The notes below the pieces were generated by a model, which ran no database searches, was not told the origin of the DNA, and saw nothing but the letters and a program-made list of their open reading frames with translations. Of a stretch of DNA of 64,000 nt, positions 32,321-33,810 are shown piece after piece (position 1 is the first letter of the stretch; every line of letters starts with the position of its first letter). This stretch comes from Candidatus Peregrinibacteria bacterium CG10_big_fil_rev_8_21_14_0_10_55_24 (GTDB lineage Bacteria > Patescibacteriota > Gracilibacteria > Peribacterales > Peribacteraceae), in the NCBI GenBank assembly GCA_002772745.1, contig PFDV01000001.1, forward strand, positions 1 through 64,000, given 5' to 3'. Position numbers and translations under genes: made by a program.

Positions 32321-32384
32321 CGTTATTCATCGAATCCGGCTCCTGCTTGACACTCTCCCCTTTGCTAGTAGACTGCGCCCGACG

Positions 32385-32438
32385 ATGACCGTTCGGTTCA
32401 TCCAGATCAGCATCATTAGTATCCCGCGCCTGGCGTGA
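32385..32438 (+). CDS. Ile-rich leader peptide MTVRFIQISIISIPRLA upstream of ilvA
   Basis: Five Ile codons of 17; TTGACA-16-TAGACT promoter ending 10 nt before ATG; terminator/antiterminator follow. Confidence 0.75.
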   Translation: MTVRFIQISIISIPRLA

Positions 32439-32467
32439 GGACGTAAGTGCTGACTGATTGAGCTCCC

Positions 32468-32498
32468 TCCCGCCAGAAGATCTCGAGCGGGATTTTTT
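32468..32498 (+). terminator. Attenuator terminator before ilvA
   Basis: TCCCGC-loop-GCGGGA-TTTTTT; competing pairing 32430-39 with 32467-76. Confidence 0.75.
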
Positions 32499-32514
32499 GT
32501 ATCACCCCCCGTAT

Positions 32515-33810
32515 ATGCCGCAACTCGATGCCCCTCCATCACTCGAAGAAATCCGCGAAACCCGCGCCAAGTTTCCGCCGGATCTCGTGCGCGTAACCCC
32601 GCTCACGCTCCATCCCCGTCTTTCCGAAACGCATGGAACGGATGTCTACCTTAAAGATGAACGTGCGCAGCCTGTTCGTTCCTACAAGATTCGCGGCGCA
32701 TTTGCAAAGATGCTCGCCCTCTCCGAAGAGCAACGCTCTGCCGGCGTGGTGTGCGCAAGCGCGGGGAATCATGCTCAGGGAGTAGCTGCAGCGTGCAACT
32801 ACTTCCGCTCCCAAGGAAGGATTTTCATGCCCACAACCACTCCTCCGCAGAAGATTGCGGCGACACAGCGTCACGGTAATGGGTTCGTAGAGATTGTCCT
32901 CACTGGTGATACATTCGATATAACGGCTCAGGAGGCGCTCCAGTACGTCCAAGAACACAGCGCAACATTCATTCACCCGTTCAACGACGCCGATGTCATG
33001 CGGGGGCAAGCAACGGTCGGTCTCGAGATCTGGGACCAAATGCAAAGCATGCGCAAGCAGCTCTCCACGGTCGTTGTTCCCGTTGGCGGAGGAGGACTCG
33101 TTGCGGGCACATCGCACATGCTGGAGATGGATGACGATCTTGAGATCGTCGGCGTAGAGCCCGATGGCGCCGCGAGCATGGCCGCATCAATTGCCGCCGG
33201 TCGTCCTGTACGCCTGGAAGAGATGGACACGTTTGCCGACGGAGCCGCAGCAAGCCCGGGAGATCTGACCTACGCGCGGGTCGAGCAAGCGATACAAACT
33301 GGCCGCCTGCGGCTCATGAGCGTTAGCAAGAACCTCCTCTGTGCAACGATGGCAGATCTACTTCAGTTGGATGGAGAGCTTACGGAGCCTGCCGGCGCGC
33401 TTTCCATTGCTGCTCTTCCTCATATCACCGCCACATCCAAGCGAGGCCCCATTGTCTGCGTCGTATCGGGCAATAACTTCGACATGCACCGTATGCCCAA
33501 AGTCCTTGAGCACGCCGCTCTCCACCGCAGACAGAAAGCATACTTGAATGTTTACCTCCCTGATCGTCCTACTGCACTCCTGGAGCTCCTTGAGGCTGTA
33601 CGCAGCAAGCTTGCCGGAATTAACATTACCTACATGCACTTCGATGAGGATCAAGACAACGGCAATTCTCCGTTGAGCATTGGCATCGCATCGAAGACAG
33701 GCCGACGAGAGGACATCGAGGACTTCCTTGCGTTGCTGGGGCAACAGACCGATGACCAGGGGGAGAATCGCTATTCGTACACAGAAGTGCGCAGTAAGCC
33801 TTCTACATAG
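32515..33810 (+). CDS. ilvA: Threonine dehydratase (PLP-dependent)
   Basis: TPLTLHPRLSE, SYKIRGAFAKM, CASAGNHAQGVA, PVGGGGLVAG; C-terminal ACT-like regulatory region. Confidence 0.88.
   Translation: MPQLDAPPSLEEIRETRAKFPPDLVRVTPLTLHPRLSETHGTDVYLKDERAQPVRSYKIRGAFAKMLALSEEQRSAGVVCASAGNHAQGVAAACNYFRSQGRIFMPTTTPPQKIAATQRHGNGFVEIVLTGDTFDITAQEALQYVQEHSATFIHPFNDADVMRGQATVGLEIWDQMQSMRKQLSTVVVPVGGGGLVAGTSHMLEMDDDLEIVGVEPDGAASMAASIAAGRPVRLEEMDTFADGAAASPGDLTYARVEQAIQTGRLRLMSVSKNLLCATMADLLQLDGELTEPAGALSIAALPHITATSKRGPIVCVVSGNNFDMHRMPKVLEHAALHRRQKAYLNVYLPDRPTALLELLEAVRSKLAGINITYMHFDEDQDNGNSPLSIGIASKTGRREDIEDFLALLGQQTDDQGENRYSYTEVRSKPST

Follow-up and report, generated by a model that had tools for sequence, protein, structure and literature searches.

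The 5′ region of the threonine ammonia-lyase-like gene ilvA was found to carry a promoter, an isoleucine-rich leader ORF, and alternative RNA pairings ending in an intrinsic terminator, which together very probably act as a ribosome-mediated transcription attenuator responding to charged tRNA-Ile, an inference drawn without data on expression, start sites, or termination. This reading was proposed in a first-pass annotation of the window (the whole stretch of 64,000 nucleotides analyzed here) and is supported by conservation across the family Peribacteraceae, a match between leader codons and downstream pathway, covariation of hairpins 1:2 and 3:4, and a predicted folding switch. Gene regulation in the Candidate Phyla Radiation (CPR)/Patescibacteria is little known, and a device of this kind lets one read off which signals these uncultured cells sense and what they control, besides supplying a compact Ile-responsive element. 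The finding also raises a metabolic question, in that the first step of a pathway appears to be under tight end-product control although the later steps are missing.

Leader ORF, promoter, and hairpins upstream of ilvA

The features of the region are collected in Table 1. All of the elements that the first-pass annotation had named could be read from the sequence, including (i) the TTGACA-16-TAGACT promoter; (ii) the leader peptide with five Ile codons; (iii) the pairing of its last codons and stop with a downstream arm; and (iv) the terminator 5′ of ilvA. The leader ORF runs for 17 codons from ATG (32385-32387) to TGA (32436-32438), with Ile at codons 6, 8, 10, 11, and 13 (positions 32400, 32406, 32412, 32415, and 32421). 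The ilvA product matched NF006390 (E-value 7e-119) at 397.6 bits, slightly below the curated cut-off of 421, and its PLP lysine motif and glycine loop were intact. The gene is apparently monocistronic.

Table 1. Features of the ilvA leader region in the window
Feature	Position	Strand	Basis
−35 element TTGACA	32347..32352	+	sequence; TTGAC-like box in Ile leaders
−10 element TAGACT	32369..32374	+	16 nt spacer after −35; start site inferred
Leader peptide ORF, MTVRFIQISIISIPRLA and stop	32385..32438	+	sequence and relatives
Protector (1:2) hairpin	32395..32464	+	folding; equivalent helix covaries across 34 leaders (model-fitted alignment)
Region 2, antiterminator 5′ arm CTGGCGTGAGG	32430..32440	+	overlaps leader stop codon; sequence, folding, conservation
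Region 3, antiterminator 3′ arm CCTCCCGCCAG	32466..32476	+	overlaps terminator 5′ arm; sequence, folding, conservation
Terminator hairpin (3:4) TCCCGC...GCGGGA	32468..32492	+	folding, covariation
U run (T6), intrinsic terminator	32493..32498	+	sequence; conserved in relatives
ilvA, threonine ammonia-lyase-like, 431 aa	32515..33810	+	ORF, profile match, motif inspection

When the complete 5′ region was folded, the long protector hairpin formed and was followed by the terminator, while omission of the 5′ part from the fold led to formation of the antiterminator between regions 2 and 3. The protector hairpin, which was absent from the earlier annotation, takes in most of the Ile codons and encloses region 2; its stability (z −2.6) was equaled in 2 of 200 shuffles. 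Within the antiterminator, CTGGCGTGAG (32430-32439) and CTCCCGCCAG (32467-32476) pair at nine of ten positions, and the pairing can be extended by G32440-C32466. The terminator arms (TCCCGC, 32468-32473; GCGGGA, 32487-32492) fold at −12.1 kcal/mol.

Generic promoter and terminator scans of the window returned about as many sites as shuffled sequences and were not significant on their own. Thus, the claim of a promoter in the window leans on conservation of its boxes, and the scans leave room for the explanation that an ordinary intrinsic terminator has an Ile-rich ORF upstream by chance and that no regulation takes place. Counter to this explanation, the window holds a single case of a leader ORF with at least five Ile codons combined with a terminator and an antiterminator, whereas 20 local dinucleotide shuffles yielded none; conservation across genera, covarying stems, and the presence of Ile-rich leaders before both ilvA and citramalate synthase genes (described below) also speak against chance. 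Judged by sequence comparison alone, a chance association would seem to be largely refuted already by conservation, and we consider it extremely improbable.

The −10 box of the window lies 10 nt 5′ of the leader ATG, and in all 33 Ile leaders a −10 box (TAnnnT) was found to end 7 to 12 nt 5′ of the start codon. The 5′ UTR would therefore be only about 0 to 5 nt, too short for a Shine-Dalgarno sequence; with start sites inferred rather than mapped, the mRNA that carries the leader ORF is probably near-leaderless. Two other ORFs of the window, of 274 aa (59555, + strand) and 176 aa (49415, − strand), have a TTGAC/TAnnnT promoter with a −10 box ending 9 nt before the start codon. As these ORFs share the −10 spacing of the leader, leaderless initiation may be general here.

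Conservation in Peribacteraceae and the genes downstream

The window genome measures 1.29 Mb and is 98.8% complete; the searches covered 75 genomes of its family, 361 genomes of its class, and an even draw of 389 genomes from the phylum. Ten ilvA orthologues (36-57% identity) were detected in the family set, and upstream of all ten lay the full set of promoter, Ile-rich leader ORF, pairing arms, and terminator, such that the layout is conserved at related ilvA loci; leader peptides at these loci include MHRSTIIISMSIPRMA, MHRSTVISSSIIIPRPA, MALRAIISSMIITPATQA, and MTRRTIIISIIIPRSARG, each followed by a stop codon. The arrangement had been called unexpected in a CPR-like genome when first annotated, a remark that needs qualifying, as the device is regular in the Peribacteraceae. 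At four orthologue loci (G052, G047, G062, and G011) a small gene is located between the terminator and ilvA, and at several a tRNA gene was seen by eye upstream that resembles the tRNA-Pro of the window. Serine/threonine-dehydratase paralogues (L011-L013) lacked the device and were excluded from the orthologue count. In G011, a second, near-identical attenuator-type terminator without a proper leader ORF was observed directly 5′ of ilvA, past the small intervening gene (L142, G011:C18:16827-16936).

A covariance model of the leader matched 39 of the 75 family genomes at an E-value ≤0.1 and about 30 at ≤1e-5. Few further genomes were matched in the class, and only weakly, and in the phylum draw the matches were mostly within the Peribacteraceae. 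Matches beyond the class (G467, G646, and G650) had Ile-rich frames with no evident target gene and are not claimed here.

The genes downstream were found to differ. With three to six Ile codons per leader (33 leaders), the Ile leader precedes ilvA in ten genomes and a TIGR00977 citramalate-synthase-like gene in 12 others, five of which exceed the curated cut-off. IlvA and citramalate synthase represent the two routes to 2-oxobutyrate. Ile leaders also precede genes for three other DRE-TIM synthases, for which isopropylmalate-synthase-like is the best-scoring assignment, and some small genes without Pfam matches. A weaker match (E-value 0.0014) in G057 is followed by a small gene and then by genes for an ABC ATPase and a binding protein of the Peripla_BP_6 type; receptors for branched-chain amino acids are among the members of this domain family. 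Elsewhere in the class, outside the Peribacteraceae, Ile leaders were identified 5′ of isopropylmalate-synthase-like genes (G340 and G350) and of a threonine-synthase-like gene (G318). Furthermore, all seven leuA-like genes examined were preceded by Leu-rich leaders, one of these genes being a clear 2-isopropylmalate synthase (607 bits versus a cut-off of 532). Leader codons thus fit the downstream pathway, Ile with ilvA or citramalate synthase and Leu with leuA; several small genes downstream lack a known function, and for these the fit cannot be judged.

Leaders of other composition were also observed. Outside the window, its own genome has a Val/Leu-rich leader, VRVVVSLVLVAVPRIGA and stop, with a terminator 5′ of a PcrA/UvrD helicase gene (L141/L191, G000:C8:47901-48009, − strand); similar Val-rich leaders are located 5′ of UvrD-like helicase genes in G004, G013, G034, G052, and G061, in most cases separated from the helicase gene by a small gene whose function is unknown. 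A leader with Thr, Met, and Lys codons (MQRFVTMKKMTKTSLSGKDGC and stop; L148, G071:C6:4759-4881, − strand) lies 5′ of an aspartokinase-like gene, and one with three consecutive Tyr codons (MKLSWLSSATYYYPPLGGG and stop; L155, G233:C2:96921-97038, − strand) lies 5′ of a phenylalanine 4-monooxygenase-like gene, whose product would make Tyr. Tandem Met-rich leaders, MFTSLRAGMMMQMMRSARGQVAA and MISLLHIAANTMMMSMPMPLRGGCET, each with its stop codon and a terminator after it, were found in G015:C29 (L179, − strand, ~5320 and ~5177) upstream of methyltransferase-domain, DRE-TIM, and aminotransferase genes. Four Leu leaders (L175, L176, L178, and L180) have an in-frame insert (PALSVVEG-like, or longer) that resembles a dispersed repeat and leaves the peptide longer and unbroken.

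Predicted switching and proposed mechanism

Folding was computed for the 33 Ile leaders with the transcript extending to the end of the terminator 5′ arm and a ribosome set on each codon. The mean probability that region 3 is sequestered was 0.67 with the ribosome stalled on Ile (0.30 in shuffled sequences), 0.10 with the ribosome at the stop codon (0.26 shuffled), and 0.23 with no ribosome (0.32 shuffled). For the window leader, the predicted change of state comes as the ribosome moves from the last Ile codon to the next one. The exceptions were G061 and, in part, G050, which failed to switch as expected. Across 34 leaders, hairpins 1:2 and 3:4 displayed changes on both sides at 10 of 11 pairs, a result equaled in none of 500 shuffles; however, the alignment was fitted to a model that holds both helices, and the score is inflated accordingly. 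The antiterminator 2:3 is conserved, with about 90% pairing in its core, but with few compensatory changes its covariation is weak, and swapping region 2/3 duplexes gave no information either way. An RNAalifold consensus on a MAFFT alignment recovered the antiterminator only, as codon-sized indels shift hairpin 1:2; the model-based alignment was used in its place.

In the proposed mechanism, RNA polymerase would produce a leaderless or nearly leaderless leader mRNA, and a ribosome would initiate on the leader ATG. With Ile plentiful, the ribosome would reach the stop codon and mask region 2, the terminator would form, and ilvA would be off. With Ile scarce, the ribosome would stall on the Ile codons and prevent hairpin 1:2, leaving regions 2 and 3 to pair in place of the terminator, and ilvA would be transcribed. 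Without translation, region 2 would be hidden in hairpin 1:2 and the terminator would form. Ribosome stalling, actual termination, and the response of read-through to charged tRNA and leader translation are, like the start site, inferred.

A terminator with an alternative pairing is also what a T-box or a small-molecule riboswitch would have if it sensed tRNA or Ile directly with the ORF being incidental, and T-boxes control ilv genes in Firmicutes. However, no Rfam T-box or riboswitch was matched in the window, the leader region is merely about 115 nt long, and relatives keep the ORF start, the Ile run, and the stop with codon-sized changes in length, such that direct sensing is scarcely credible. 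Rfam leader families likewise gave no match at threshold, the best being Trp_leader at 14.7 bits versus a gathering score of 41. Alternatively, the leader peptide could arrest its own ribosome and affect the translation of ilvA rather than termination. The peptide ends are in part similar (IPR.A and TPATxA), and ilvA starts 16 nt past the U run with no Shine-Dalgarno sequence recognised by eye, both consistent with this alternative. Yet the termini vary widely (PRLA, PATQA, PRSARG, and LGVRR), a terminator is present at every leader, and the similarity of the ends can be ascribed to RNA constraint because the C-terminal codons overlap paired region 2; we regard peptide arrest as very unlikely and favor ribosome-mediated attenuation.

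Apparently orphan first-step enzymes and relation to known attenuators

The attenuated enzyme appears to stand alone. No ilvB, ilvC, ilvD, leuC, or class-IV (BCAT) aminotransferase was detectable in the window genome, and ilvD and ilvC were missing from 74 of the 75 family genomes (the exception being G015); ilvB-like proteins were detected in five of the 75, leuC/aconitase in three, and class-IV aminotransferases in 15. As a positive control, identical searches run on 14 control genomes recovered the enzymes in 13 or all 14 of them. IlvA in the window genome therefore appears to be an orphan first-step enzyme under predicted end-product control, and with ilvB, ilvC, and ilvD not found, the rationale for having Ile control ilvA remains incomplete. 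An intact-looking IlvA, or elsewhere a citramalate synthase or LeuA, is retained behind an end-product attenuator without the steps that follow. The options include (i) a pathway split with a partner; (ii) unknown replacement enzymes; and (iii) another use of 2-oxobutyrate. One elaboration, which is speculative and rather unlikely, is that, of the branched-chain pathways, the Peribacteraceae retained just IlvA or citramalate synthase, and LeuA, which are the committed first enzymes and are normally subject to feedback inhibition; each would be attenuated by its end product, and the remaining steps would have been lost. A starved epibiont would then make 2-oxobutyrate, citramalate, or 2-isopropylmalate, a partner cell would complete the pathway past its own inhibited step, and the epibiont would import the amino acid.

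A literature search restricted to open-licence papers found no leader-peptide attenuation in the CPR and nothing on this device. The leaders of the enterobacterial ilv/thr operons are examples of ribosome-mediated attenuation, with ilvA among the controlled genes. The window device shares with them an Ile-containing leader peptide, a protector 1:2, an antiterminator 2:3, and a terminator 3:4, and differs in four respects: Ile alone is enriched among the regulatory codons, only one gene is controlled in the window, the leader ORF is apparently near-leaderless, and ilvB, ilvC, and ilvD are not detectable in the genome. Leaderless layouts have been described in other bacteria. A precedent is the Corynebacterium glutamicum ilvBNC leader, where the transcription start lies 1 nt away from the start codon and a ribosome-binding site is lacking (PMC11857589, citing Morbach 2000). 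This system likewise uses three-hairpin attenuation, but its leader MTIIRLVVVTARRLP has Ile, Val, and Leu codons, its operon encodes further pathway steps, and both phylum and gene are different. The cysteine-responsive leaderless short ORFs of mycobacteria similarly place, to judge by the title of the study, a run of regulatory codons 5′ of an operon (Canestrari 2020, as cited in PMC13236596), but these codons are Cys, and no conserved terminator hairpin was found for the mycobacterial cys leaders (PMC1262725). Overall, the attenuation mechanism itself is of a known kind, and what is new is its occurrence in the CPR, the apparently near-leaderless layout of the leader, the replacement of ilvA by citramalate synthase behind one attenuator, and the control of seemingly orphan enzymes.
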